Source: Actinomycetota bacterium
GTDB lineage: Bacteria > Actinomycetota > Geothermincolia > Geothermincolales > RBG-13-55-18
Assembly: GCA_014360655.1 (NCBI GenBank)
Contig: JACIXC010000001.1
Location: forward strand, 81,173-145,172
Direction of reading: 5' to 3'
DNA length: 64,000 bases
The position numbers and the translations under genes are program-made. Positions 3,889 through 21,049 of the stretch are shown piece after piece. Positions within the stretch are counted from its first letter, which is position 1, and each line of letters begins with the position of its first letter. Below the pieces are notes generated by a model, which worked only from the letters and a program-made list of their open reading frames with translations, was not told the origin of the DNA and did not search any database.

Positions 3889-4480
3889 CTCACCTCCAGG
3901 AGCCCATCTCATCTCCCGGAGTCCATCACCCGGAAAGCGTCGCACTCTCTTTACGCCCATGCTCTCATGACTCTCATAAGGTACACAATATTCCATCAGA
4001 ATTATTCAATCGCTTAATATTAAAACAATAATATTATCTATCAACAATAATATAATTGCAACACAGGAAAATGGGCGCAAGAAGCGAGTCCGGTCCGTTT
4101 TCTCCACCTATCACCTTTTCTCCACCTTGTCCGTCATCCCCACCGCTTACATGGGGCTCAAAACCGGGCTTGGGGCGCGAAAGCCCCCCTCTTTCCCCTT
4201 TCGGTTTCGAGTCCTGCGGGTATGACGGGCCAGCCGCCCGCAATGTTGCATCCCGCGACACGCACGTCGCAACGACTTTGCACGAGGATGTCCCGGAAAC
4301 AGCGGCCCCGGGGCTTGCATGCGGCAAAACGAGGTAAATAAATGAGGGTGGTTAAGCGCATGGACGGTGATCGAAACAGATGGTGCGCTTACAGAAAGGA
4401 CGCCCCACGGAAAGCGCGCCCACGGCCGGATCCGTCGGGTGAACGCGAGCGCCCCCTCCTTCCGCCGTGACGGGTCTTCC
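3889..4480. other. Intergenic region with an AT-rich promoter zone
   Basis: 592 bp without a supportable gene. Positions 3965-4062 are strikingly AT-rich for this genome and hold the promoter candidate at 4033-4061. The rest (4063-4480) is GC-rich; its short frames in all phases show no recognisable protein. Confidence 0.6.
4033..4061 (-). promoter_or_regulatory. Sigma-70-type promoter for the SpoIID-like gene
   Basis: On the minus strand, TTGCAA (4056-4061) and GATAAT (4033-4038) are separated by exactly 17 nt inside an AT-rich stretch. The predicted start site lies about 140 nt upstream of the ATG at 3888. Confidence 0.55.
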
Positions 4481-5206: not shown

Positions 5207-5875
5207 TCAGATGATACCCTGCTTGATGGCCTTGATGATGAGATGAGCGCGGTCCTCCACCTCCATCTTGCGGAAGACGTTTCGCAGGTGGGTTTTCACC
5301 GTGCTAAGGCTGATGTTGAGCTCGCGGGCGACCGCCTTGTTGCTGTATCCCTTGGCGACCAGCCTCAGCACCTCGTACTCCCTTCCCGTCAACGACATGC
5401 GGTCATCCCCGCCCTCTTCCGTCTCCCCCGGCAACCTGTCGCTGCGGTAGAAGGCGCTAAGCAGTTTCCCCGCAATGGCCTTGGAGACCAGGGGTACGCC
5501 CCGGGATGCGGACGTCACGGCCTCGAGGACCTGCTCCCTGCCGGAATCCTTCAAGAGGTAGCCGATGGCGCCCGCACGCAGCGCATCGGCCGCTATCTCC
5601 AGGTCATCGTAAACGGTCAGCATGACGCACTGGATGTGGGAGGTCCTGTGGTCGCTCTTGAGCCTGCGCACCACCTCCACGCCGCTGATGTCGGGGAGCT
5701 TGACGTCCACCAGCATCACCTGAGGCTGCACGTCGCTTGCCAGGCGCAGTGCCTCCTCCCCGCATTCCGCCTCCCCGACCAGCCGTATGCCGTCCTGCCC
5801 CTCCAGGAGACGGCGGATCCCCAGGCGAACGATCACCTGGTCGTCCACGACGGCCAAGCTTATCGCCTCTTCCAA
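5207..5875 (-). CDS. NarL/FixJ-family response regulator
   Basis: 222 residues. An N-terminal receiver domain (about 5-125) has the acidic pair D11/D12 and the phospho-acceptor D57 in LVDVKLPD. A C-terminal LuxR-type helix-turn-helix (about 155-215) contains LTGREYEVLRLVAKGYSNKA and STVKTHLRNVFRKM. It should be a phosphorylation-controlled transcription factor paired with the kinase immediately upstream. The TTG at 5875 is chosen because GGGAG lies 5 nt before it and the protein then has normal length; a GTG at 5890 overlapping the kinase stop is the alternative. Target genes cannot be deduced. Confidence 0.92.
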   Translation of the reverse strand: MEEAISLAVVDDQVIVRLGIRRLLEGQDGIRLVGEAECGEEALRLASDVQPQVMLVDVKLPDISGVEVVRRLKSDHRTSHIQCVMLTVYDDLEIAADALRAGAIGYLLKDSGREQVLEAVTSASRGVPLVSKAIAGKLLSAFYRSDRLPGETEEGGDDRMSLTGREYEVLRLVAKGYSNKAVARELNISLSTVKTHLRNVFRKMEVEDRAHLIIKAIKQGII

Positions 5876-5886
5876 AGCTACTCCCT

Positions 5887-6792
5887 TCACGCTTGCCTCA
5901 ACGGCATATCGAACACCAGCCGCGTCCCCATTCCCGGCGCCGTCTCGACATGGAATACGCCCTGGCTCAACTCCGCCCTCTCCATCATCCCCTTCAACCC
6001 CAGGCACTCCCCGGCGGCCATCCTCTCCCTTATCTCCTCCCAGCGGAAGCCGACCCCGTCATCCTCGACCCTCAACTCCACGTGACCGTCGCTCCCTCCC
6101 AGGGACAGCCGCACCGCCCCGGCATGCGCGTGGCGTGCCACGTTGGAAAGCGCCTCCTGCGCCACCCGGAAGAGGGTGGTTTCCGAATAGGGATCCAGTT
6201 TTTCGAAGCTTCCCCAGGCATGGAAAGAAGTCCGGACACCGTTTTCGACCCCGAAGCGTTCCAGGTAGGAGGAGAGCGAGTTGCTCAGCCCCAGGACTTC
6301 GAGCGAAGAAGGGCGCAGGTCGGAGACGATGCGCCGCAGGTCCCTCATGCCCTCGCGCGCCTTTTCCCTTATTTCCTCCACGCATTCTTCCGCCCCCGGC
6401 AGCCCGAGCGCCTCCCCCCGCAGCCCGTCCAGCCGGTAGATGATATCGAGGAAGTGGGGAGCAAGCCCGTCGTGCAACTCCCTGGACACGCGTATCCTCT
6501 CCTCCTCCTGCGCCGTGGAGACTCCCTGCGCCAGGCGTCTCAGGCGCTCGCTCTTCTCCTGAACCTCCCGCATGAGCTGGGCGTTGCGCAGGGAAACGGA
6601 CACCTGGGCGCTGAGGGCGACGACGTTGTCCAGCTCCTCCAGGCTGAAGGGGGTGCGGTCGAGTTTCCCTCCCAGCCACAAGATCCCCACCCTTTCCCCG
6701 CCCACCTCGAGGGGCACGGAGATGACCTCCCTGTGCCTGTTCCTCTTCCAGGTCGTCTCGCGTATCACGTCTCCATCGCGCACGCGCAGCAC
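5887..6792 (-). CDS. Histidine kinase, C-terminal catalytic part (separated by a frameshift)
   Basis: 301 residues covering the end of a GAF-like sensor region (about 1-75), a HisKA_3 dimerisation helix with phospho-acceptor H107 in RELHDGL, and a HATPase_c domain with N-box QEALSNVARHAHA, G1-box VEDDGVGF and G2 region GLKGMMERAE. It has no membrane segment of its own. Reading upstream in this frame through CPLSYVDFG reaches the G8 run at 6821-6828, where the frame of the membrane part meets it. Most likely this is the second half of one 722-residue kinase, not an independent gene. The GTG at 6792 is only the first start codon in the frame and has no good ribosome-binding site. Confidence 0.85.
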   Translation of the reverse strand: MLRVRDGDVIRETTWKRNRHREVISVPLEVGGERVGILWLGGKLDRTPFSLEELDNVVALSAQVSVSLRNAQLMREVQEKSERLRRLAQGVSTAQEEERIRVSRELHDGLAPHFLDIIYRLDGLRGEALGLPGAEECVEEIREKAREGMRDLRRIVSDLRPSSLEVLGLSNSLSSYLERFGVENGVRTSFHAWGSFEKLDPYSETTLFRVAQEALSNVARHAHAGAVRLSLGGSDGHVELRVEDDGVGFRWEEIRERMAAGECLGLKGMMERAELSQGVFHVETAPGMGTRLVFDMPLRQA

Positions 6793-6820
6793 GCCGAAGT
6801 CGACGTAGGATAAGGGGCAG

Positions 6821-8056
6821 CCCCCCCCGGATCACCGTCTTGCCCAATTTCCAGTAGCTGGTAAAGTTGCCGTTGCGCGTCTCCATGAAAAAGGAGTCTT
6901 TCCACTCCCATACCATGATCCCCTCCCGCGCATTCTCATGATAGCGCGTGGAAGCGTGACCGGGGTGCGAGGAGAGCCCCAGCACGCGGTAGAACCCGCG
7001 CCCTTCGCCGCCCATGAGGGCGCAGACGGTGAGCCCGATGGACTCCCTCACCACGCGCACGACTTCCCTGGAAAGTAATTCCAGGTCGCCGACCGTGCGT
7101 ATGGAGCGGCCCAGGTCCTGCAGGCATTTTCCCGCCCTGTCCTCGCTCTCGTACACGTAGCGCGAGACGAGGCCGCGCAGCCACGCCACCTCCACCGGGT
7201 AGGCCACGACCAGCGGCACCGCACAGGCGAGGAAGAGGAAAAAGGTGGTCCAACCGCGCGGCAGCCGCAGCCCGTAGGCGAAAAACGCGTAGAGCAGGCA
7301 GCACGCCGCCAGGTTGAAGACCAGGGCCGCGGCGTGGGCCATGGCCCCCTTGGCCGCCAGCCGAGAATCGAGGAAAAGCCCGTGGCGCATGATGCCGTAG
7401 GCGAGAAGGGCGACGGTGAGGATGCTCGCCTGGGGAGTGGTCACGCTGCCGCTCCAGCGCAGGTTCTGCACCAGGTTGGCCGCGAGCATGGGAAGCGGCG
7501 AGAGGGCGAGGAAGAGGAGGCCGCGTCGCGCGGGAGTGGAATCGCCGCGCATGCCTTCCCGGGCGAAGAGGAAGGACGAGAGGCCGATATAGGCGAAGCC
7601 CAGGGCGGTCAGGAACCAGAAGAACGGGGTGCGCTCCACCTCCATGCCGTGCAGGTTTTCCCAGGGGACGTAAGCCGTGTAGACCAGGTCGGTGGCGTAT
7701 AGAAAGACCAGCCCCAGGAGAAAGGGCGCGTAGATCGCCGCGACGGCCGCTGCCGCCCTCCGCGGGGTCGCAAGGACACGCCTGGTGCGCGGGAAGAAGA
7801 GCGCGAGGACCAGGAAGGTGGGGATCAGGGGGAGCTCTCCCAGGCCCTGGAACCTTGTCCAGAATATCTTCCCCTGCAGGGACGAGGCGGTCGCGGTCAT
7901 GGCGTCGCCGACGGCCCATAATGCCAGGCACACGGCCACCACGAGGAAGAGGGCGTTCGCAACCTGGCGTCGACCCCTGATAAAGACGTACAGGCCAATG
8001 GCCAGGCTGAGCAGTCCGGAAGCCGTGGTTATCGCCCTCGGTATATCGCCGCCCAT
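6821..8056 (-). pseudogene. Histidine kinase, N-terminal membrane-sensor part (frameshifted)
   Basis: This frame encodes about 412 sensible residues: eight or nine hydrophobic helices (residues 8 to ~285), as in 7TM/MASE-type sensor kinases, then the start of a GAF-like domain up to WKLGKTVIRGG. It then enters a run of eight G at 6821-6828 and continues in a nonsense arginine-rich frame to 6059. Removing one G joins it in frame to the catalytic half, giving 722 residues. Either the assembly carries a homopolymer error, or the gene is disrupted, or slippage restores the frame. The ATG at 8056 has no Shine-Dalgarno but sits 6 nt after a perfect TATAAT. Confidence 0.8.
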
Positions 8057-8166: not shown

Positions 8167-11133
8167 TCACCAGGGCGGAGGCGACATAGGCCTGCTGGGT
8201 GGAACGTAGATCTCGGCCCTCCGGAACTGTATGACCGTGGGAATGAGCAACAGTATATTGCTCGCCCTGTAACCCTGGATGGTGATCCAGAGGTTTTTCA
8301 ATGCGCCGTTGATGTCGCTCTGGTTGACCAGTTCCTTCACGAAATAGGGGTTCATCCAGGCAACCAGTTCCCCCACGAGATCTACGGCCCCGGGGTTGCC
8401 GTTGATGGCCCCGGCGATCACGGTGCCGTCCAGGTTGGCGATGAGGTCCCTCAGGAAGTTGTAACCGTATGCGTCCAGGGAATTGGCCAGGTTGGCCCCG
8501 CTCATGAACGGCGAGCCCAGTATCCTCTCGATGAGGGAGTTTCCGGGATGCCGTGCGTACTCGGCGTTGATGGCGTCCGCGATGACCTTACCGTCCAGGT
8601 GCGGCAAGAGGTCGGAGATCACCTGCGGGTTACTGTTGAGCAGGCCGGCCACCACCGCGGGATCCAGGGCCTGCAGCAGCCACGTGGTCATCTGGGGGTT
8701 GGCGTTAAGGGCGAGGGCGATGGTGGCCGCGGTATCCGCGTCGAGCTGCGCCATCACCGAACGTATCATATCCTGCGCGGTTGCGTTCTCGTTGACCCCC
8801 TGGGCGATGAGGGGGGCCACCACGGACGCGTTCATGGTGTTGATGAGCATGGCCACCAGGCCCTGCCTGTCGGGATTGGCCTCCAGGCCCGCGGCCGACG
8901 CCTCGGCCACCTCCGGTCCCAGGTTTGCCAGCATGTTGCGCAGGAACTGGTAATAAGACGCCGGGTGCTCCGCGGTGCCGTTCTGCGCCCGGTAGCACGA
9001 GAGGTTCACGGCGTTGGCCAGGGCCACGGCGGTGTCCGGTGAGATGTTCTCGATGACCACGCGGAGGAAGTCCATGTTGTTGTTGATGCCGGCCGCCAGG
9101 GCGACTCCCACGTCCCCGCTGGTGTTGGCCAGAAGCCCGGTGAGAAGGTTGTCCGCCGGGTCGGGGGCCACGTTCTCGTTGATGCCCTGGGCCAGGGCCG
9201 CCGCAGTGTCCTCGCTGAGGTTGGCCACCAGCACGGAGACGATGTCCTGCCCCAGGGGATGGGTGGCCACGTGGAGGTTTATCCCGTAAGCCAGGTACTC
9301 CGCCGTGGTGCTGCTGGTATTGGCCAGGAATCCCCGCAGGAAATCCCGGTTCGCGTTCACCGCCGCGGCGATGACCGCCGGGTCCAGCGCCCCGACCAGG
9401 GCGGGGAGGAAATTCCTCCCGGCGTTGTAATTGTCGGTCATGCCCAGGGCGGAGTAGGTCCCCATGTCCCCACCCAGGTCGGCGAGGAGCGTCCGCAGGA
9501 AATCCGCGTTGTCGTTGAGCGCCCCGGCGACGGTGGCTGGATTCAAGTGCGAGATCACCGAGGCCAGGAAAGCCGGGTTGCGGTTGGAGCCCCTCACCAT
9601 GGCCGCGGCCACAGGGGGAGAGATCTGCGAGAGGAGGTCGTAGACGAAGCCGGCGTGATCGCCCAGCGCCGCGGCTATGGGGGCCGGGTCGAGGTTGGCC
9701 AGCAGCGCCCCGATGAACTCCGGGTTATCGTTGAGCCCCCACGCCACCGGGCTTCCCAGCGAGGGAGGAAGCAGTCGCGAGAGCTCCTCGCTCACGCCCG
9801 GGTGGGCGTTGAGGGCGTTGGCCACGATGGCCGGGTCCAGGGCGTTCAGCGCCTCCACGATGAGGGCCGGGTTGGCGCCTATGCCCGCCGCCAGCCCCGC
9901 CCCCACCTGCGGGGAGAGCAGGGGGAGGATGTCGGCGGTCAGGCCCGGGTTGGCGTTGACCACGTTGGCCAGCACGCGCACGTCCAGGAGCCCCAGGATG
10001 CGCGAGAGCATGGATTGGTTGGAGATGAGGTCGGCCACGAAGCCGGGGTCGACGTAATCGGTGCTCTTCTTCACCAGGTCTATGGAGGAGTTGATGATGT
10101 CCGCCACCACCGCGGGGTCCAGGAAGTTCATGAGGTCGTTCACGAAATCGGTCGCGGACATGAGGGCCTTCGCCACCGGCAGCGGCTGCATGTAGGGAGC
10201 GGTGGCGGTGAGCATGGTGCTGCTGTTGAGTATGTCGGCTATGTATTCCGGCGAGATGGAGCGGGTGACGCGCACGGCCGTCGCCACGTTGGCGTTGAGC
10301 GCTCCCGCGAGCACGGCGGGGTTGAGGTAGCGCATGACGGAGGCCAGGAAGGGCCCGTTCTGGTTTATCACCCCCGCGATCACCGCCGGGTTGATGTAAC
10401 CGAGGGAGGCGGTGAGCATGTTGCCGTTCTCGTTCACCACCCGGGCCACCACCACCGGGTCCAGTCTGGCCACCAGCGACGAGAGGAAGGGTCCGTTCTC
10501 GTTCACCACCCGCGCGGTGCCCGCCGGGTCCAGGAGCCCCATCATAGCGGTGAGGAAGGGCCCGTTCTGGTTTATCACCCCCGCGATCACCGCCGGGTCC
10601 AAATAGGACATGACGGCGGAGAGGAAGGGGCCGTTGGCGTTGATCCCCGCGGTCATCTTCTCCGCGTCCAGGTGGCCCAGGAGCTCGGCGAGGAAAGGTC
10701 CGTTGTCGTTCACTACCTGCGCGATCACCCTTGGGTCGAGCGAGGCCAGAAGGCTCGTGACCAGCTCGGTGGCGTTGTTGACCACGTAGGCCACCGCCTC
10801 CGGGTCCAGGTAAGGCATGACCGCCGAGGTGAAGTCGGGGTTCTCGTTGATCACCTGGGCGATGACGGGCAGCGTGCCCTCCTCCACCATGGCCGCCAGC
10901 AGCCGGGAGATGAACTCCGGGTTCTCGTTGAGGGCCTCGGCCACCGCCTTGGGCTCGGTGTTCTTGAGCATGTTGGAGAGGAGATCCACGTCCGAGGCCA
11001 CCTTGCCCAGCAGGGGACCAAGGGGGCTCCGGGAGGGAAGCACCATGACCGCCCCCACCGCGAGGAAGCCCACCAGCAGGGCCACCACGGCTATGTTCAC
11101 CACCAGCTGCACCGGTCTCTTCAGGAGGAACAT
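8167..11133 (-). CDS. Membrane-anchored helical-repeat (solenoid) protein, paralogue C
   Basis: 988 residues; third gene of the three-gene operon, 30 nt after paralogue B. Residues about 9-31 form one hydrophobic anchor after a short basic N-terminus (LLKRPVQ), followed by a conserved linker LPSRSPLGPLLGK. The rest is almost entirely tandem repeats. In the first half the unit is 23 residues with pattern A-x-x-(V/I)-N-x-N-x-x-F-L-x-x-(L/M)-(L/M)-x-x-L-D-P-x-V-I. In the second half many units are 26 residues and begin A-x-x-x-A-x-G-(I/L)-N. I count about 35 units. The non-repeat tail is aromatic and proline-rich. Anchor orientation suggests the solenoid is outside the cytoplasm. No enzymatic motif and no named family is recognised; function unknown. 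Confidence 0.85.
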   Translation of the reverse strand: MFLLKRPVQLVVNIAVVALLVGFLAVGAVMVLPSRSPLGPLLGKVASDVDLLSNMLKNTEPKAVAEALNENPEFISRLLAAMVEEGTLPVIAQVINENPDFTSAVMPYLDPEAVAYVVNNATELVTSLLASLDPRVIAQVVNDNGPFLAELLGHLDAEKMTAGINANGPFLSAVMSYLDPAVIAGVINQNGPFLTAMMGLLDPAGTARVVNENGPFLSSLVARLDPVVVARVVNENGNMLTASLGYINPAVIAGVINQNGPFLASVMRYLNPAVLAGALNANVATAVRVTRSISPEYIADILNSSTMLTATAPYMQPLPVAKALMSATDFVNDLMNFLDPAVVADIINSSIDLVKKSTDYVDPGFVADLISNQSMLSRILGLLDVRVLANVVNANPGLTADILPLLSPQVGAGLAAGIGANPALIVEALNALDPAIVANALNAHPGVSEELSRLLPPSLGSPVAWGLNDNPEFIGALLANLDPAPIAAALGDHAGFVYDLLSQISPPVAAAMVRGSNRNPAFLASVISHLNPATVAGALNDNADFLRTLLADLGGDMGTYSALGMTDNYNAGRNFLPALVGALDPAVIAAAVNANRDFLRGFLANTSSTTAEYLAYGINLHVATHPLGQDIVSVLVANLSEDTAAALAQGINENVAPDPADNLLTGLLANTSGDVGVALAAGINNNMDFLRVVIENISPDTAVALANAVNLSCYRAQNGTAEHPASYYQFLRNMLANLGPEVAEASAAGLEANPDRQGLVAMLINTMNASVVAPLIAQGVNENATAQDMIRSVMAQLDADTAATIALALNANPQMTTWLLQALDPAVVAGLLNSNPQVISDLLPHLDGKVIADAINAEYARHPGNSLIERILGSPFMSGANLANSLDAYGYNFLRDLIANLDGTVIAGAINGNPGAVDLVGELVAWMNPYFVKELVNQSDINGALKNLWITIQGYRASNILLLIPTVIQFRRAEIYVPPSRPMSPPPW

Positions 11134-11163
11134 CTCCCGCCTACCTCTTTCAAACCTCGCATG

Positions 11164-14061
11164 TCAGTAGATCTTTCCCGTTCCTGCGTCGGTTACGTAT
11201 GTCCACAACCACTCGTAGGTCATCCCCAGGAAGTTGATGACCATGTACGTCTTCATCCCCAGGCGCCTCATGAGTGAATTGGTATAACCGGCGAGGCAGT
11301 TGTCGATGGCGTTCGCCATCTGCTGGTCCAGGCCGGGCACGGCCATGAGGTCCAGGCTCATCTGCAGGCCGTGCCCCAGATCCGACGAACTAGTGCCCGA
11401 CATGATCTCCGATGTCTGCCTTCCGTCCAGGCCACCGATGAGGTCCGCTATGAAGCTCTGCGCGCCGCTTCCCAGGGCCTGGGCCACCCTCTGGCCGCTC
11501 AGCCCCGCCAGCAGTTCGTTGGTCAGCCCCTGCCCTTCCGCGCCGTTCATGATGCGCGCCATCATGTCGGCGTCGGTTGCCGCCAGGTTGTCCACAAGGA
11601 AGTCGGAGACCGCCGGGTCCAGTCCGGCGTTCAATCCCACGGCCAGGGCCGCGCCGTCCAGGTTCTTTATCACCGCGTCCAGGAATGCGGTGTTCATCTC
11701 CAGGGCGTCGGCTATGGCGCGTACCGTGTGCTCCTCGGTGTTGTCGAGTATGGCATAGAGGGCAGAGTCCGCACCGGCCGCGGCCATGGCGTTGAGGCCC
11801 CTGCCCACGGCCGCCCCCGTGGCCGAGTCCAGGCCGGCGAGGAGGTTCGTGAGGAAGGCTCTCTTTGACGGGTCGGCGCTTCCCGCGCTGGCGTTCAATC
11901 CTTCCGCCAGGGCCTCCGCGGTGGCCGGTGCCAGGTTGGCCATGAGCACCTCCATGAGGTCCGGGTTGGCTTTCGCGGCCTTGCCCATTACCGTGCCCGT
12001 GTCCGCGTTGAGGTTGCCCACCAGCTCCGCAAGGAAACCCGCGTCGGCGTATTCCAGGGCCTGACCCACGGCGGCCGCCACGTCGGCGTCCAGGTATCGC
12101 AACACGTTCTCCAGGAATCCACGGCCCTCCCGCGCGTTGAGATTGGTCCCCTCGGCCATGGCCTGGCCGGTAGTGTAGCCGAGGTTGGCCAGAAGTTCCA
12201 CGATGAAAGTAGGGTCCGTGTTGATGGCCTGCGCCACCGCCTCCCCCAGGCTCCCGTCCAGGGCGGCGATGAGGTCCCGGGTGAGGCCGGGGTTCACGTC
12301 CAGGGCCTGGGCGATCACCGCCGGGTCCAGGTAGGAGATGAGCCAGGTGAGGAAAGTGGCACCGTTGTTCAACCCCCCCGCTATCCCGGCCGCAAAGTGG
12401 GTGTCGAAATAGGCGGCGAGCTCACGCGCCGTCTCCGGGTGCGCGGTTAGCAGGTCGGCGAGCATGCCGGCGTCAAGCTCCCCTATGAGAGTGGAGAGGA
12501 AATCCATGTTGTTGCTGAGGCCCAGCGCCAAGCCCGCCCCCGCCAGGGGCGAGAGGTGCGCCGAGAGCTCCTCGCTGAAGCCGGTGGTATGTTCCAGGAT
12601 GTAGAGCAAGGAGTCCACGTCCAGGTTGTCCAGCGCGGCGTCTATGAGGTCCGTGTTGTTGTTGATGCCCTGCGCCGCCGCCTGGGCCGCCACGGTATCC
12701 AGGTTGGCGAGCAGGGAGGTGAGAAAACTCCCGGAGCTCTCCAGCACCCCGGCCAGGAAGGCGGGGTCGGAGGAGCCCACCATGCGGTCGATGAAATCAG
12801 GGTTGAGGTTGAGGCCCAGGGCCGCCGCCCGGCCCAGCGAAGGGGGCAGGTCGGCGACCAGCGACTTTATGAAGCCGGCGTTGACGTTGAGCGCCCCCGC
12901 CAGGGCCGACTCGTCTATCAAGGGGATCACCTGGTCGAGGAAGGCCTCGTCGTTGGCCAGGTAGGTTATGTAGTCGTCGCGCAGGTAGCTTATGATGGCC
13001 GCCACGTTGTCGCCCGTGCCGTTGAGGGCGGCGGCCGCCCCTTTCGGGTCGAGCTGGCCCACCACCGCCTTCAGGAACCGCGCGTTGGCGTTGAGGGCCG
13101 CCGCGATGGGCGCGGGGTTGAGCAGCCCCAGCAGGCGGGTGAGGATCACCTGGTCGGAGGCGATCTCGGCCGAGGCGCGCGGGTCCATGCGGTTGACCAC
13201 CCCGATGAGGAAGGACTTGTTCTCTTTGACCGCCCGCACCACCACGTCGGGGTTGAGGTATCGGGTGAGCCCCGCCAGCAGTGCCCCGTTGGCGTTCACC
13301 GCCCCCGCGAGCACCCGCGGGTTCAACCTGCGCATGAGGTTGGAGACGAAGGCGGGGTTGCCGTTGATGGCCTGCGCGGTGGGCGCGGGGTCCAGGAAGG
13401 AGAGCAGGGCGGAGAGCCAGCTCCCGTTGGCGTTCACCGCGGAGGCGATCACGCCCGCGTCCAGGTTGGCGAGGAGCCGCACGGTGAAGTCCACGTTGGC
13501 GTTCATGGAAGCCGCCACCACCACCGGGTCCAGGAAGGAGAGCAGGGCGGTGATGAAGGGCCCGTTCTCGTTTACGATCCCCGCCACCACCGCCGGGTCG
13601 AGCTCGGGCAGGAGGGCGGCGGTGAAGTCGCTGGAGGCGTTGACCGTCCCCGCCAGCAACTTGACGTCGAGCAGCGGCAGCAGGTCGGAGATGAGGTCCC
13701 CGTGCTGGTTCACCGCCTGCGCAACAGGCGCGGGGTCGAGCTCCCCCACCAGGGCCACGAGGAACTCCGGGTGCTCGTTTACCGCCTTGGCGGTGGCCTC
13801 CAGGTTCCCGGGGTTTTCCAGCTCCGCGAGAAGGGCGGCCAGGAACTCCGGGTTCTCGTTGATAGCCTTGGCCACCTCGTGGGGATCGAGCCCCGAGACG
13901 ATCCCGGCGAGGGTCTTGCGCTGGGAACCCATCTTGCCCAGGATGGTGCCCATGGGACCCTTGACCGGCAGCAGCATGACCACCCCCGCGATCACCAGCC
14001 CCACCAGGAAGATGATGACCAGGATGTTCACCACTATCTGCACCGGCTTGCGCAAAAGCAT
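11164..14061 (-). CDS. Membrane-anchored helical-repeat (solenoid) protein, paralogue B
   Basis: 965 residues; middle gene of the operon. It starts with basic residues and an anchor (MLLRKPVQIVVNILVIIF onward), then the linker LPVKGPMGTILGK matching the other two paralogues. Tandem 23-residue units follow, for example AQAINGNPAFVSNLMRRLNP, shifting to 26-residue units in the second half (A-x-x-x-A-x-G-x-N). The C-terminal tail is non-repetitive and aromatic (FLGMTYEWLWTYVTDAG). The ATG at 14061 is preferred to the GTG at 14070 because GAGGAG lies 8 nt before it; the upstream gene ends at 14074, so translation is probably coupled. No catalytic or ligand motif is seen. Function unknown. Confidence 0.85.
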   Translation of the reverse strand: MLLRKPVQIVVNILVIIFLVGLVIAGVVMLLPVKGPMGTILGKMGSQRKTLAGIVSGLDPHEVAKAINENPEFLAALLAELENPGNLEATAKAVNEHPEFLVALVGELDPAPVAQAVNQHGDLISDLLPLLDVKLLAGTVNASSDFTAALLPELDPAVVAGIVNENGPFITALLSFLDPVVVAASMNANVDFTVRLLANLDAGVIASAVNANGSWLSALLSFLDPAPTAQAINGNPAFVSNLMRRLNPRVLAGAVNANGALLAGLTRYLNPDVVVRAVKENKSFLIGVVNRMDPRASAEIASDQVILTRLLGLLNPAPIAAALNANARFLKAVVGQLDPKGAAAALNGTGDNVAAIISYLRDDYITYLANDEAFLDQVIPLIDESALAGALNVNAGFIKSLVADLPPSLGRAAALGLNLNPDFIDRMVGSSDPAFLAGVLESSGSFLTSLLANLDTVAAQAAAQGINNNTDLIDAALDNLDVDSLLYILEHTTGFSEELSAHLSPLAGAGLALGLSNNMDFLSTLIGELDAGMLADLLTAHPETARELAAYFDTHFAAGIAGGLNNGATFLTWLISYLDPAVIAQALDVNPGLTRDLIAALDGSLGEAVAQAINTDPTFIVELLANLGYTTGQAMAEGTNLNAREGRGFLENVLRYLDADVAAAVGQALEYADAGFLAELVGNLNADTGTVMGKAAKANPDLMEVLMANLAPATAEALAEGLNASAGSADPSKRAFLTNLLAGLDSATGAAVGRGLNAMAAAGADSALYAILDNTEEHTVRAIADALEMNTAFLDAVIKNLDGAALAVGLNAGLDPAVSDFLVDNLAATDADMMARIMNGAEGQGLTNELLAGLSGQRVAQALGSGAQSFIADLIGGLDGRQTSEIMSGTSSSDLGHGLQMSLDLMAVPGLDQQMANAIDNCLAGYTNSLMRRLGMKTYMVINFLGMTYEWLWTYVTDAGTGKIY

Positions 14062-14073
14062 CGTCAACACTCC

Positions 14074-17000
14074 TCAAGGTGCCCACTCGAAACCGGCGAA
14101 ATTGATCCATGCCGGTAAGGGCAGTATGCCAAGAGCCTTGGCCGCGATATCGAACCACATGCATTCGAGCATGTTGTGGTCGGGTATGACCATGTCGGGG
14201 TCGTGGGTGGCCAGCGCCTGGTTCAGGGCCGCCGCTATGGTATTCGCGTCCAGCGTCCCGAGAAGCTGCGTGAGGAACTTCCCCGCTCCCCCGGCATCGG
14301 CCGCCACGATAGCCTGCCCGATGGTGGTACCCAGGCCGTTCGCAGCCGCCGCGTCCAGCAACTCCTCGGTGACGCGGGGATTCGCGTTCAGGGCGTTGGA
14401 CACGATATCCGCGTTCAGGTTGTCAAGCAGGTCGTTGATGAATTTCTTCCCTCCGGTGGTGGCCAGCGCGTTGTTGACCGCGCCGGCCAGCGCGCCCCCG
14501 TCCAGCGCCCCCACCAGGGCGGTAATCCACGCCTCGTTCTGGTTCAATTGCAAGGCCATGGCCTCTCCGTCCAGGTTGCGCAGCAGGTACTCAACGAAGA
14601 CGGGGTTGCCGTTGAGCCCCTCGGCCACATCCACGGCGGTGTGGAAACCGGGATCCCCCTTGTCCAGGTTGGCGATGAGCTGCGAGAGGAAGCTGTCCAT
14701 ATTGTACGGTGCCGAGTTGATGACGCTTGCGATCACCCCCGCGAACTCCTTGGAGGTGGCTCCCAGCATGGCCTCCAGGAAGGACCTGGGGAGGTCCGGG
14801 TTGGCCGCGTTGGCGTTGAGTCCCGCGGCGACCTCCTTGCCCACGTTGCCGTCCAGGTTGGGCAGGAGGTTGGTCACCAGGTTGTCGTGGGGGTTAGCCG
14901 CCACGTGCGCGTTGAGTCCACGGGCGATATATTCTCCCACCTCGGGATCGAGGTTGGACATGAGCTGGTAGGCCAGGCTGGACTCGACCTCCGTGTCCTC
15001 GAAGATCCCGTTATGGTTGGCGTCCAGGTTTGCAGTGCTCTGGTTGAGCCCCTCGGCGATGGCCTTTCCCACGTCGGGTGAGAGGTTCTCCAGCAGGGGC
15101 TTGATGATCTCCGGGTTGAGGTTCAGGGCTTCGGCGATGCGCCGCCCCGTGCCCGCGTCCAGGTAGCGTGCCACGACGCGGGTGGTGTCGGGGTTGGCGT
15201 TGAGGCCCTCGGCGACGGCCTGGGCCGCGGTCTCGTTAAGGCGCACCAGGAGCCCGGCCACGAATCCCGAGTTCTGGTTGACGGCCGCCGCCACCACCTC
15301 GGCGTCGGAGTACTTCAGCAGGGACTTGATCATGGAATCCTCCGTCGCCTCCCCCGCGTCTGTGTTGACCCCCTCCGCGATGGCCTGGGCGACGCCCTCG
15401 CTGAGCAGCGGTATGAGCCCCGCGATGAGGGCGTCGGCCGCCCCCTTGTTCAATATCTCCTCGGCCAGCACCCGGGGGTCCGCCGTGGCGAGCACCGTGT
15501 CGATCAGGTCCGGGTTGTCGTTCAGGGCATGGGCCGCCGCCTCCGCGACGCTTTCGGGCAGCAGGGCCAACAGGGTGGGAATGAAATACCCCGAGAGGTC
15601 CACGGCCAGGGAGACGGCGGAGGCGTCCAGGGCGTTGGTCAGGTTGATCAGGAAGTCCGGATTGTCCTTGGAGCCTTCGAGTATGGCCTGCACCGTGACC
15701 GGCTCTATCCCCTCCACCAGGGCCCTGAGGAATGAGGGCGCCTGGGAGAGGGCGGAGGCGATCTGGGCCCCGTCGAGGTTGGCCAGCACCGCCTTCACCA
15801 GCTCCGGGTTGGTCTCGAGGGCGTTGTTGGTGATCTCCGCCAGCGCCGGGTCCAGGAGGGGCAGCAACTGCGTGACGAAGTCGGTGTGCTCGCCCAGTGC
15901 GGCCCCGATGGCCGCGGTGTCGACGAGCGGCAGCACGCGCGCCAGCAGGCTGCCGTTGTTGAGCATGGTGGCCACCAGTTCCGGGGAGATGGCGTCCATC
16001 ACCTTGTACACGAAGTCGGGGTGGGCGTTGGCGATCCCCGCCACCCAGGCGGGGTCCAGCGCCTTCAGCAATCCCGCCGTGAAGGGGGAGGCGTTGTTGG
16101 CCATGGCCGCGATCACGGAGGGGTTGAGGCTGTTCAAGAGCCGGTTCATCCAGGCCGTGTCGTGCACGGTCACGGCCAGCACGTTGATGAGCAGGTTGTC
16201 CGAAAGGCTGGCCACCAGGTCCGCCGTGGAATCGGCGTTGGCGTTGAGCACCGAGGCGATGGTAGCGGGATTGAGGTGGGACATGAGGCGGGAGAGGAAG
16301 GTGGGATGCGCGTTCATGCCCGCCGTGAGCACCTGCGGGTCGAGGTTCCGCATGAGCCCGGTTATGAAGGACCCGTTGGCGTTCACCACCTGGGCCACCA
16401 CCGCCGTGTCCAGGTATCCCATGAGGTTGGAGACCATGGTGGGGTTGGCGTTCATGGCCGCCGCAAGCACCGCCGGGTCCAGCAGGCCGATGAGGGCGGT
16501 GACGAATGCGCCGTTCTCGTTCACCGCCTTGGCCAGCACGGCCGGGTCCATGGCCGCGGTGGAGGCGGTGAGGAACTCGCCGTTCTGGTTGACGGCCCCC
16601 GCCACCACCTGGGGATCGAGGTACCCCACGAGGGCGGAGACGAAGCCCCCGTTCTCGTTCACCGCCGCGGCTATGGCCGCGGGGTCGAGGTGATCCATGA
16701 GGGCGGTGGTGAAGGCGGCGGCATCCGGGTCGTTGAGCGCCGCCGCGAGGGTGGCCGGCTCCAGCTCGCCCAGGAGTACTGAGAGGAACTGCGGGTTCTC
16801 ATTGACCGCCTCGGCGATCATGACCGCCCCCTCCTCGCCCAGCTCGGCGAAGAGGTCGCTCATCATGTTGGGGTTCTCCCGCAGGGCCGCGGCCAGCTCC
16901 ACCGGGTCCAGGTTGGCGAGAAGGCCCGAGAGGTTCTTCTTTGCGGAGAGGATCTTCCCGATGAGGGGACCGGCCGGGTTGCGGGAGGGGATGAGGGCGT

Positions 17001-17079
17001 ATGCACCCATCGCCACCGCCCCTACCAACACGACGATGACGATGATGTTGATGGCCGTCTGGACTGAAGACCTCAGCAT
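14074..17079 (-). CDS. Membrane-anchored helical-repeat (solenoid) protein, paralogue A
   Basis: 1001 residues; first gene of the operon. A hydrophobic anchor at about residues 9-30 is followed by the shared linker LIPSRNPAGPLIGK and about 35 tandem repeats of 23-26 residues, such as AAAVNENGGFVSALVGYLDP. Uniquely among the three, one repeat is interrupted at residues 686-697 by DANHNGIFEDTE, which fits the spacing of an EF-hand or dockerin-type calcium loop. The tail is non-repetitive and aromatic (LPAWINFAGFEWAP). The start is preceded by GAGG 6 nt upstream. The ~640-bp gap to the protease gene upstream should contain the operon promoter. Repeat geometry suggests an alpha-solenoid scaffold or binding surface; this is inference. 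Confidence 0.85.
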   Translation of the reverse strand: MLRSSVQTAINIIVIVVLVGAVAMGAYALIPSRNPAGPLIGKILSAKKNLSGLLANLDPVELAAALRENPNMMSDLFAELGEEGAVMIAEAVNENPQFLSVLLGELEPATLAAALNDPDAAAFTTALMDHLDPAAIAAAVNENGGFVSALVGYLDPQVVAGAVNQNGEFLTASTAAMDPAVLAKAVNENGAFVTALIGLLDPAVLAAAMNANPTMVSNLMGYLDTAVVAQVVNANGSFITGLMRNLDPQVLTAGMNAHPTFLSRLMSHLNPATIASVLNANADSTADLVASLSDNLLINVLAVTVHDTAWMNRLLNSLNPSVIAAMANNASPFTAGLLKALDPAWVAGIANAHPDFVYKVMDAISPELVATMLNNGSLLARVLPLVDTAAIGAALGEHTDFVTQLLPLLDPALAEITNNALETNPELVKAVLANLDGAQIASALSQAPSFLRALVEGIEPVTVQAILEGSKDNPDFLINLTNALDASAVSLAVDLSGYFIPTLLALLPESVAEAAAHALNDNPDLIDTVLATADPRVLAEEILNKGAADALIAGLIPLLSEGVAQAIAEGVNTDAGEATEDSMIKSLLKYSDAEVVAAAVNQNSGFVAGLLVRLNETAAQAVAEGLNANPDTTRVVARYLDAGTGRRIAEALNLNPEIIKPLLENLSPDVGKAIAEGLNQSTANLDANHNGIFEDTEVESSLAYQLMSNLDPEVGEYIARGLNAHVAANPHDNLVTNLLPNLDGNVGKEVAAGLNANAANPDLPRSFLEAMLGATSKEFAGVIASVINSAPYNMDSFLSQLIANLDKGDPGFHTAVDVAEGLNGNPVFVEYLLRNLDGEAMALQLNQNEAWITALVGALDGGALAGAVNNALATTGGKKFINDLLDNLNADIVSNALNANPRVTEELLDAAAANGLGTTIGQAIVAADAGGAGKFLTQLLGTLDANTIAAALNQALATHDPDMVIPDHNMLECMWFDIAAKALGILPLPAWINFAGFEWAP
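14989..15024 (-). other. EF-hand/dockerin-like calcium loop in paralogue A
   Basis: Encodes DANHNGIFEDTE: acidic or amide side chains at loop positions 1, 3 and 5, glycine at 6, and glutamate at 9 and 12, as in 12-residue calcium loops. It is inserted in a long repeat linker. Neither other paralogue has it. Confidence 0.5.
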
Positions 17080-17723: not shown

Positions 17724-20618
17724 TCAGGGTTGCAGCACGCCCACGGTGTCCGTGCCTCCCTCCCTGCCGGACCAGTACATGGCCCGCTCCACCACCAGGG
17801 GTCGATCGGAGCTCACCCATACCGAGGCGTCCCGTCCGGGATCCAGGCTGTTGGCGTAGACCGTGTAGCGCGCCCCCGCGTTTATGGAAACCGCCTGGGA
17901 GCGCGTGCTCCCGTCCTTCCGCATGAAGGTGAGGGTCGCGTGCGCTATGTACCCGGATACGTTGGCGAGGGGGACGTACTCCTCGAAACCCCAGGCGGTG
18001 GAGCCCTCGGCCAGGTACCAGGTCTTGCAGGCGGTGACGGACCCGGTGCTGCAGTGGCCGCCGGCGCGCGCGCGCCCGTTGCGGGACCAGTACATGGCCC
18101 GCTCCGCGATGACGGGGAGGCTGGCACGCACGAAGGCGGAGACGTCGCTCTGCGGCGTCACCTGTGAGACGTTCAGCGTGTAGCGGGCATAGGGAGGAAC
18201 GGCGTCCGTCCTGCGCGCCCGCGTGCCGCTCGCGTTCACCAGGTCTATGTCCACCGTGGCCGTCGCGGGGTTGGGGTTCTGCACCACGATCCATTCTTCG
18301 AAGCCCCAGGCGGTGGAGCCCTCGGCGAAGTACCAGGTGGCCGCGGGTTGCAGCACCCCCAGGGCGCCGTGCCCCCCGTCCCTGCCAGCCCAGTACATGG
18401 CCCGCTCCGCGATGACGGGGAGGGAGGCATGGATGTGGGTGGAGACGTCGCTCGCGGGGACCAGGTCATTGACCTTGATGGTGAGGCGGGCGTATCCGTC
18501 GATGGGGAAGCTGAAGGGCGTGGTGCCGCCCCCCGGTTTCATGAAGGTGACCTGGAGGGTAGCAGGCTCCGGGTTGGGGTTCTGCACCGCGATGTACTCC
18601 TCGAAGCCCCAGGCGGTGGTGCCCTCGGCCAGGTACCAGTCGGTATTCTTGCGGTTAGAGCCCACGGAGGCATGCCCATCCGTCCTGCCTCCCCAGTACA
18701 TGGCCCGCTCCGCGATGACGGGGAGGGCGGCATGGATGTGGGTGGAGACATCGCTCGCGGGGACGAGGGAATTGACGTAGAGGGTGAGGCGCGAGTTGGC
18801 CACCATGAGTACCTCGATATGCTGGGTGGCCCCTCCCGGCTTCATGAAGGTCACCTGCGCGGTCACGGGGGCGGGGTTGGGGTTCTGCACGCAGACGTAC
18901 TCCTCGAAGCCCCAGGCGGTGGTGCCCTCGGCCAGGTACCAGTCGGTGGAGGGCTGCGGCTGGGTCCGGTTGCGGAAGAGGGTCACCGCGTGCTCTCCGT
19001 CGTAGGCGCCTCCGGAGGTCACGGCTCGCACCGTCACCTCATGCGTCCCCTCGCCCAGGGCGGAGAGGTCCCAGGCGAAGGTGTGGCTCACGCTTCCCGA
19101 TGGCGCAGGGTAGTGAGATTCGACCACGTCCCCGTCCACCACCAGGTGCAGGGCCACGATGTTTTCGTTCGCCGAAAGGGCGGTGGCGGAGACCTTTCCC
19201 GAGGCGGGGTAGGAATAATCGGCGGGGGCGGTCACGCGCACCAGGGGCACGCGCAGGGAGGCGTTGATGTCCAGCAATCCCCAGCCGTATTCGTAATCGT
19301 ACCCGGGGGTCCCCAGGTCGCGGGCGCCGTCCCGCAGCAGGCGGAAGACCTCCTCGGGCGAAAGGTCGTAGGAGGAGTACTCCGACAGCACCAGGAGGGC
19401 GGCGGCGGAGACGTGGGGGGCGGCCTCGGAGGTGCCGTTGCCCTGCGCGCTGCCGCCTCCCAGCTTCAGGCCCCAGATGCCCTCGCCCGGGGCCACCAGG
19501 TCCACGCTTGAGTTGCGGTTGGAGAAGGAGGAGCGGGAGCCTCCCGGACCCGTTGAACCCACCCCCAGCACGTAGGTCATGCCGGCCGGGTAGTTGACCA
19601 GCGTCGATCCCTCGTTGCCCGCCGCGGCGGCCACCACGCAGCCCTGGGCATGCGCGAACTCCAGGGCGTCGGCGAGCATCTGGGAGTAGGCGGAGGAGGT
19701 GAGGCTCATGTTGATGACGTCGGCATCGTAACTCGCGGCGTAATAGACGCTGTTCACCACGGCGTCCAGGTTGCCCGCGCCCGCCGAGTTGAGCGCCTTT
19801 AGGGGGATCACCTTCGCGTACCAATCTATGCCGGCGATGTCCATGAGGTTGTTGGTGTTGGCGCAGGCGATACCGGTGACCAGCGTGCCGTGTCCGCTGT
19901 CGTCATAGGGATAGGGATCGTTGTTGTAATAGTCCCATCCCGGACGCGACGGATCTATCCTGCCCGCCAGGTCGCCATGGCCGTGGTCCATGCCGGTGTC
20001 GATGACCGCGAGGGCGAGGGAGGCGGAGCCCCTCTGCAGGTCCCAAGCCTGGTCGGCGCGCACCCCGTAGGCCCCGTGAAGGTTCCACTGCTGGGAGAAC
20101 AGGGGATCGCTGGGGGTCGTCACGGCCGCGTGAAAAATAATGTTGGGTTCCGCCGCCTCCACCAGGTCCGACGACAGCAGCTCGCGGCAGGCCTCCAGCT
20201 CGTCCACGCCCTCGCGCAGGCGCAGGCTTACCGCCCGTTTCACGGGGTCTGCAGCGAAGGCGGCGAAAGTCCGTGCCATGTCGTCCTCGAGCCACATGGA
20301 ATATTCTTCCACCAGCCCGGCGAGACCCGCAAGCGAGCGCCCGCGCAGGAGCACCACCACCTCGCCCGCGCGGTAAGTCTCCCGCGGGTAATGGGCGGCG
20401 TCCAGCCGGCGCAGCAGGGAGAGCTTGGCGGGCGAGAGGAGGTTACCGCCCCCGGCCCCCACGGCCGGGGGTAGCCCATGCGTGATAAACAGCGCCGAGA
20501 GGATGAGCAGCAGCGTCGCCGCCAGGCACCCATGTGACCCGCAGAGCCTTCGCCTCCCGCGCCGCGGCGCCCCACGAGGCCGCGCGTCCACCGCTTTTCC
20601 GGCCAAGTCCACCGCCAC
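17724..20618 (-). CDS. Secreted subtilisin-like serine protease (S8) with four WYFAEG repeats
   Basis: 964 residues. A twin-arginine-free basic start and a hydrophobic segment (about 32-52) form a signal peptide. A propeptide-like region follows (to about 195), then the S8 catalytic domain with D207 (AVIDTGMDHGHG), H243 (SGHGTLVTG) and S397 (GNGTSEAAPHVSAAALL). A beta-rich linker leads to four ~100-residue modules, each beginning W-(Y/F)-(L/F)-AEGTTAWGFEE and ending in (V)IERAMYW or VAERAMYW-type strands; they resemble those of the SpoIID-like protein at 1597-3888. It is predicted to act outside the cell on peptides or proteins. The GTG at 20618 has GGAG 5 nt upstream; a GTG at 20624 touches the same site. 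Confidence 0.9.
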   Translation of the reverse strand: MAVDLAGKAVDARPRGAPRRGRRRLCGSHGCLAATLLLILSALFITHGLPPAVGAGGGNLLSPAKLSLLRRLDAAHYPRETYRAGEVVVLLRGRSLAGLAGLVEEYSMWLEDDMARTFAAFAADPVKRAVSLRLREGVDELEACRELLSSDLVEAAEPNIIFHAAVTTPSDPLFSQQWNLHGAYGVRADQAWDLQRGSASLALAVIDTGMDHGHGDLAGRIDPSRPGWDYYNNDPYPYDDSGHGTLVTGIACANTNNLMDIAGIDWYAKVIPLKALNSAGAGNLDAVVNSVYYAASYDADVINMSLTSSAYSQMLADALEFAHAQGCVVAAAAGNEGSTLVNYPAGMTYVLGVGSTGPGGSRSSFSNRNSSVDLVAPGEGIWGLKLGGGSAQGNGTSEAAPHVSAAALLVLSEYSSYDLSPEEVFRLLRDGARDLGTPGYDYEYGWGLLDINASLRVPLVRVTAPADYSYPASGKVSATALSANENIVALHLVVDGDVVESHYPAPSGSVSHTFAWDLSALGEGTHEVTVRAVTSGGAYDGEHAVTLFRNRTQPQPSTDWYLAEGTTAWGFEEYVCVQNPNPAPVTAQVTFMKPGGATQHIEVLMVANSRLTLYVNSLVPASDVSTHIHAALPVIAERAMYWGGRTDGHASVGSNRKNTDWYLAEGTTAWGFEEYIAVQNPNPEPATLQVTFMKPGGGTTPFSFPIDGYARLTIKVNDLVPASDVSTHIHASLPVIAERAMYWAGRDGGHGALGVLQPAATWYFAEGSTAWGFEEWIVVQNPNPATATVDIDLVNASGTRARRTDAVPPYARYTLNVSQVTPQSDVSAFVRASLPVIAERAMYWSRNGRARAGGHCSTGSVTACKTWYLAEGSTAWGFEEYVPLANVSGYIAHATLTFMRKDGSTRSQAVSINAGARYTVYANSLDPGRDASVWVSSDRPLVVERAMYWSGREGGTDTVGVLQP

Positions 20619-21049
20619 GCGCACTCCTTTCCTCTCCTCCGCCTTCCTCTCCTCCGTCTCCCCGCGGCGGCCGCTTACGCTTCCATCACCCCGCGGCGGT
20701 TGTTCATATCCGCCTCACACGGATGCGGCTGCTTTGTGCGCCACATCCCCCCGCAGCGCCCCCGTCTTCAACACCCCCGTCTTCCAGCGCCTCCCGTGCT
20801 CGCTTCCCGCTCATTATCGTCATCTTGCCTCGACTCCCTTGAACCCCTGCCGGGCTCGCCGCAGGGCCGGCCGCGACCGCGGGACTTCCCCCCGCCGCGC
20901 GACCCGCCGCTGCCGCCTGCCATCGCCTCGAGAGAAAAACGCGCAGCCCCGCAGGCGCCGCTCTCCCCCCTTCCCGTAACGCGCGCGGTCATGCCGATAG
21001 GGTTTGTTGGCAATAGTTACCAGGATGCGCTGCTGCAGCTGTCAGCGCC
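20619..21049. other. Intergenic region, nothing recognised
   Basis: 431 bp of very GC-rich sequence between murA and the protease gene. No promoter, terminator, RNA gene or coding signal stands out, although the protease promoter should lie here. Confidence 0.5.

Follow-up and report, generated by a model that had tools for sequence, protein, structure and literature searches.

Three adjacent membrane-anchored tandem-repeat proteins of matched length in Geothermincolia: a possible cell-surface stalk

Three paralogous repeat proteins

The 64,000-nucleotide stretch of DNA analysed here (the window) is part of the 2.97-Mb, 99.96% complete genome of an Actinomycetota bacterium (GenBank assembly GCA_014360655.1, contig JACIXC010000001.1, positions 81,173 to 145,172) from a lineage whose class name we take to be Geothermincolia. 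On its minus strand, three paralogous genes lie head to tail and encode proteins of 1001, 965 and 988 residues, here called Rep1, Rep2 and Rep3, with a pairwise identity of about 35% (Table 1). An earlier note, made from the sequence alone, had described three adjacent paralogous open reading frames with these lengths and with gaps of 12 and 30 nt, which is correct if the ATG at 14061 is taken as the start of Rep2, in agreement with the starts of its orthologues. The proteins share one layout, i.e., a single N-terminal transmembrane helix, also present in all three as that note had it, followed by a common linker, a repeat array and a variable C-terminal end.

Table 1. Features of the Rep1-Rep2-Rep3 locus and its neighbours, in window positions
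Feature	Position	Strand	Basis
Rep1, 1001-residue membrane-anchored repeat protein	14074..17079	-	open reading frame, repeat matrix; orthologues in tree clade (100/99)
Rep1 membrane helix, residues 7-30, invariant Q7 and N11	16990..17061	-	Q-x3-N in 70/70 transmembrane segments; invariant columns
Rep1 post-membrane linker, residues 31-42, PSRNPAGPLIGK	16954..16989	-	alignment conservation
Rep1 repeat array, residues 57-942, 28 scored 23-residue units	14254..16911	-	matrix; helical in AlphaFold2 model
Rep1 C-terminal module (residues 946-1001), with the lowest conservation in the protein	14077..14244	-	orthologue comparison
Rep2, 968 residues from GTG or 965 from ATG at 14061	11164..14070	-	open reading frame, repeat matrix
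Rep2 membrane helix, Q-x3-N face	13969..14040	-	transmembrane alignment
Rep2 repeat array, 29 scored units	11287..13890	-	repeat matrix
Rep3, 988 residues	8167..11133	-	open reading frame, repeat matrix
Rep3 membrane helix, Q-x3-N face	11038..11109	-	transmembrane alignment
Rep3 repeat array, 26 scored units	8365..10959	-	repeat matrix; AlphaFold2 model
Rep3 C-terminal beta-hairpin (residues 950-956 and 968-975), predicted at low confidence	8209..8286	-	AlphaFold2 model
Subtilase (Peptidase_S8) carrying DUF5719 repeats; upstream neighbour kept in f1-f3	17724..20624	-	
7TM (seven-transmembrane) histidine kinase in two frames: N-terminal part 6059-8056, C-terminal part 5887-6792	5887..8056	-	
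LuxR-type response regulator	5207..6007	-	

Repeats were counted with an iterated 23-column position-specific matrix, which scored 26 to 29 units per protein (Table 1), against 0-2 in shuffled sequences (50 shuffles per protein). Their consensus is L-D-P-x-(V/A)-(I/V/L)-A-x-(A/G)-(L/V/I)-N-x-N-(P/G)-x-F-(L/I/V)-x-x-L-(L/V/M)-x-x, and they are spaced by 23 residues until about residue 385 and thereafter by 23 and 26 in alternation, giving a double unit of 49 residues. AlphaFold2, run on single chains with 11 orthologues for Rep1 and 10 for Rep3, predicted all-helical solenoids at modest confidence (predicted local distance difference test, pLDDT, 69 and 70, respectively), in the regular parts of which each repeat is a pair of helices of 8-10 residues each. 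The Rep1 model has about 70 helices, i.e., about 35 pairs, in keeping with the approximately 35 tandem repeats first proposed. Strand-like C-termini resembling the Rep3 hairpin were seen by eye in paralogues. Positions of the repeat predicted to be exposed are small, polar or acidic and none is hydrophobic in character; conservation among orthologues is 0.47-0.66 at exposed positions 4, 8, 15, 18, 19 and 22, compared with 0.81-0.95 in the core.

The alpha-solenoid that had been suggested is thus supported by two predicted models, and also by Foldseek, in which they matched solenoids of the HEAT type (TM-scores only 0.1-0.2, at E about 1e-6). As modelled, the Rep fold shares the general architecture of HEAT and ARM proteins such as karyopherins and CAND1, in which helix pairs stack into a long superhelix, but is of a different family, since HEAT/ARM units are about 40 residues long instead of 23/26, the Reps are membrane-anchored, and there is no sequence relation (no HEAT/ARM profile match in Pfam and no noteworthy PDB sequence match for Rep1-3). 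More broadly, neither Pfam, NCBIfam, PHROGs nor PDB sequences gave a match above curated cut-offs for the three proteins, in agreement with the earlier note, which recognised no named family. Weak NCBIfam matches (BglJ and XopAD/skwp among them) fell far under the cut-offs and were dismissed as repeat composition.

The resemblance to leucine-rich variant (LRV) repeats, which the earlier note had pointed out while remarking on the shorter unit and the missing LRV Arg, lies in a unit length of about 24 residues and in the N-P and D-P turns. Membership of LRV was rejected because the PF01816 profile had no match at E<=1 in Rep1, Rep2 or Rep3. The models show two short helices of 8-10 residues per repeat, which, at modest confidence and in an output that merges 3-10 with alpha helix, would be compatible with either the presence or the absence of the alternating alpha and 3-10 helices of LRV. 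XPC-binding, MgtE_N and FliG_C profiles give weak solenoid-type signals in paralogues. The first, XPC-binding/STI1-like (PF09280), was rejected, with Rep1 at 23.7 and Rep3 at 18.3 bits under the gathering cut-off of 26.4, which only one distant short paralogue exceeded. MgtE_N (PF03448) and FliG-type superhelices have similar short two-helix repeats with an L-D/P-P-x-x-A-A-x-x-L-L pattern, but MgtE_N is a short domain within an ion transporter, had no match in Rep1, Rep2 or Rep3, and reached only 14.5% probability in a direct profile comparison (hhalign), leaving homology unsupported; a longer paralogue (Rep4, see below) of genome G013 passes its Pfam cut-off through summed weak repeat matches (42.3 vs 25.9 bits). 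A literature search turned up no publication on the Rep family, which is undescribed.

Distribution and gene order in the class

A profile search found the Rep family in 26 of 26 Geothermincolia genomes sampled and in none of 270 other Actinomycetota, and the family is therefore a candidate defining feature of the class. An earlier single-protein search had found it in every genome of the class except one, which is 62% complete. Scanning genome contigs with a single protein gave no relative; an alignment-based scan did recover relatives, and those with names are metagenome-assembled genomes of Candidatus Solincola and Candidatus Geothermincola. An origin in a mobile element, phage or plasmid was rejected because tblastn found no Rep relative in phage and plasmid collections and PHROGs gave no match.

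The three-gene order, to which the earlier note had drawn attention, is found outside this genome and is kept across families f1-f7 wherever contigs are intact. In f1-f3 the order is subtilase (S8 and DUF5719), Rep1, Rep2, Rep3, and in f4-f7 it is extracytoplasmic function (ECF) sigma factor, RepA, RepB, RepC. An apparent loss of the triad in G001, G008, G010 and G011 was rejected, because the contigs there break off at the subtilase and, where one was located, at the kinase, placing the triad in an assembly gap. In a tree built from the N-terminal regions of 70 Reps, Rep1, Rep2, Rep3, RepA, RepB and RepC form separate clades; RepB is sister to Rep1 (99/94) and deeper pairings are weak. Two complete triads are present in each of G002 and G012 (L074:4761-13680, L071, L068, L072), and G015 has a second triad (L049:3061-8012) of half-length Reps with 12-13 repeats each, behind a different ECF sigma factor.

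Matched lengths, the membrane anchor and a putative stalk

With the linker proline as starting point, the ectodomain lengths of each complete triad agree to within 1-2%; across lineages they run from about 408 to 1048 residues. The window genome, for example, has 970/933/955, G016 has 876/853/870, G019 has 799/828/794 and the short triad of G015 has 411/405/409. The mean standard deviation is 14 residues within triads and 150 between them, and permuting lengths within each slot never equalled the observed matching. Length changes are, furthermore, shared in place: compared with f1, Rep1, Rep2 and Rep3 of G016 are each about 98 residues shorter within residues ~385-550 (single alignments net 72-100), and all three Reps of G017 are about 89-105 residues longer within residues ~467-610, a step that in both genomes equals two of the 49-residue double repeats. 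As Rep1, Rep2 and Rep3 are separate clades across f1-f3, these changes postdate the triplication. In G017, the added stretches of Rep1 and Rep3 share 26% identity and so are not recent duplicates of one another; with the paralogues themselves at only about 35%, gene conversion is disfavoured as the source of the matched lengths. That neighbouring genes change length together suggests that their products stand side by side as rods of one cell-surface structure, and coordinated insertions and deletions in three paralogues would be rare sequence evidence of a register-locked assembly, from which precise predictions follow.

The second line of evidence comes from the anchor, compared in 70 family members. 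A Gln at position 0 and an Asn at +4 (Q-x3-N) are invariant in 70 of 70 transmembrane segments, with Val at +7 (94%), Gly at +18 (83%) and Pro at +24 (99%), and positions 0, 4, 7, 11 and 18 share one face of the helix. The linker that follows, noticed from the outset as common to the three proteins, is kept across the family as P-x3-P-x-G-x3-G-K (P 99%, P 83%, G 94%, G 94% and K 80%). Buried Gln and Asn promote association between membrane helices, and the Q-x3-N face may do so in the Reps. With regard to topology, Reps are acidic and contain 0-4 cysteines within 420-1532 residues, features that fit a location outside a Gram-positive-type cell. Together with the N-terminal helix and the sigma-linked N-terminal domain of RepA, they point to a repeat domain outside the cell.

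On balance we favour, with restrained confidence, the reading that Rep1, Rep2 and Rep3 assemble outside the cell into one hetero-oligomeric stalk, in register and anchored in the membrane. Each would be an alpha-solenoid rod held in the cytoplasmic membrane by its N-terminal helix, with the rod itself outside. The helices would associate through their polar Q-x3-N faces and the solenoids would run parallel, in register and to equal height, each of them ending in its C-terminal module. Such a stalk would probably span or structure the cell wall and present or position something at its tip. The proposal that triplication reflects a function needing three related subunits gains strong indirect support here, as both matched lengths and indels common to the three paralogues are consistent with it.

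Several points weigh against a joint stalk. The p-value of the length permutation, about 5e-5, is optimistic because the lineages are related, and the length of G017 Rep2 was obtained by joining two contigs across a 56-residue identical overlap. The structural models cover single chains at modest confidence, and the poorly conserved exposed positions give no sign of a conserved lateral interface, a real weakness for tight packing. Finally, matched lengths could arise from each rod spanning the same layer alone. Rods of this kind, independent of one another and each tracking the thickness of the envelope layer it crosses, would account for the length matching through that common thickness and would sit comfortably with weakly conserved surfaces; however, a need for length alone would not require changes of about 98 residues to coincide in position across the three proteins, and the invariant polar membrane face suggests association. 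We therefore consider independent rods unlikely, if deserving of attention. It is far less probable, and in our view barely credible, that the Reps are fast-evolving surface adhesins or receptors with freely varying repeat number and a triplication without joint function. Tandem repeats and paralogy are expected of such proteins, and Rep4 does vary in length (1261-1532 residues), but repeat number in the triad is stable and coordinated, and presence in 26 of 26 genomes of the class with kept synteny is atypical of variable adhesins.

Sigma factor, kinase, transporter and lipoprotein neighbours

In f4-f7, an equivalent of the favoured stalk may be tied to transcription. In all seven triads whose upstream DNA is intact, RepA directly follows an ECF sigma factor gene, in genomes that hold 5-7 similar sigma factors. 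RepA has about 110 residues ahead of its membrane helix (at residues ~109-144), whereas Rep1-3 have just a few. One such pair, an ECF sigma factor followed by RepA with this undescribed N-terminal domain of about 110 residues, lies at L078:9181-12702, with equivalents in G018, G020, G021, G023, G024 and G030. The N-terminal 84-90 residues of RepA had no match at a useful E-value in Pfam, including known anti-sigma profiles, and the domain is possibly a new anti-sigma domain. If so, it must be cytoplasmic, which places the repeats outside. The arrangement resembles membrane anti-sigma factors of the RsiV/RsgI type in having a gene behind that of an ECF sigma factor, an N-terminal domain, one transmembrane helix and a large domain beyond it; it differs in that the RepA domain fits no known anti-sigma profile and Rep1-3 lack such a domain. 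The link offers a route to what the structure responds to, in organisms of almost unknown biology.

These neighbours also raise the alternative of a sensory antenna, in which the rods would serve mainly to sense the state of the envelope, passing the signal to the ECF sigma factor in f4-f7 or, in f1 and f2, to the 7TM histidine kinase (HisKA_7TM) and response regulator that lie downstream of the triad. The constancy of both associations speaks for it, as does the separate ECF sigma factor ahead of the short G015 triad. Yet a sizeable domain ahead of the membrane helix is found in RepA only, the kinase gene in the window carries a frameshift, and three length-matched rods of 1000 residues are unnecessary for sensing, so that we regard an antenna as improbable. 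The break in the window kinase lies near 6790, with intact orthologues in G005, G001 and others, and reflects either a pseudogene or an assembly error.

Combining the stalk with the sigma factor link gives a broader and more tentative picture, which we put at somewhat less than an even chance, namely a class-wide, undescribed envelope organelle in which three length-locked solenoids are bundled outward as a stalk or tube. The number of 49-residue double repeats would set its height and, in most families, a giant anti-sigma subunit would couple its expression to an ECF sigma factor.

Beyond the triads, the longer paralogue Rep4 occurs in f1; in the window genome it is probably divided between contigs 27 and 12, at their ends. 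In five f1 genomes (G000, G001, G002, G004 and G008), the window genome among them, the only LppX_LprAFG lipoprotein gene adjoins Rep4 (L042:5339-6058, contigs C27/C12). Small Reps of 283-302 residues, without transmembrane helix or signal, occur in f4/f5, and the best or only DUF6612 lipoprotein lies within a few kb of them in six genomes (G018, G019, G020, G021, G022 and G024). The loci of these small soluble Reps (L056, L058, L062, L106 and L107) contain the DUF6612 lipoprotein and a TIG/DUF5719 protein, with a phasin-like protein in L056.

LppX/LprG proteins carry lipids in mycobacteria, which keeps a role with envelope lipids as a live rival. According to this explanation the three rods would form a tubular conduit through the envelope for hydrophobic cargo such as lipids, supplied by an ATP-binding cassette (ABC) transporter and lipid-binding lipoproteins. 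In addition to the LppX_LprAFG genes in five f1 genomes and DUF6612 in six of f4/f5, it draws on the pair of ABC-2 transporter genes that follows Rep3 in G002, G003, G006, G014, G015 and G016. A precedent is the mycobacterial Mce1 system, a tunnel of six paralogous subunits with stacked helical repeats (PMC9882608), which is likewise from an actinobacterium and built of paralogues with one N-terminal transmembrane helix each and equal numbers of helical repeats. The Reps differ in lacking an MCE domain (MCE/MlaD was not found in Pfam or NCBIfam scans), in having three genes instead of six and in having no YrbE permease found alongside. In the window genome, G005 and G009, moreover, the interval from Rep3 to the kinase contains no ABC genes, and the exposed positions of the repeat, as described above, lack hydrophobic character. 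A conduit seems to us rather unlikely, if a shade more plausible than an antenna.

A B-box zinc-finger gene follows RepC in several f4-f7 genomes, and such a protein recurs beside Rep4 in f1 (L055:12946-14595, L078:2235-3899). Repeats of the DUF5719 type (WYLAEG-x-AWGFE) are massively expanded, with 39 matches to the window subtilase in its own genome and up to 59 in relatives. A SpoIID-domain protein with a DUF5719 region is encoded near the triad (1597-3996, minus strand) and hints at a cell-wall context.

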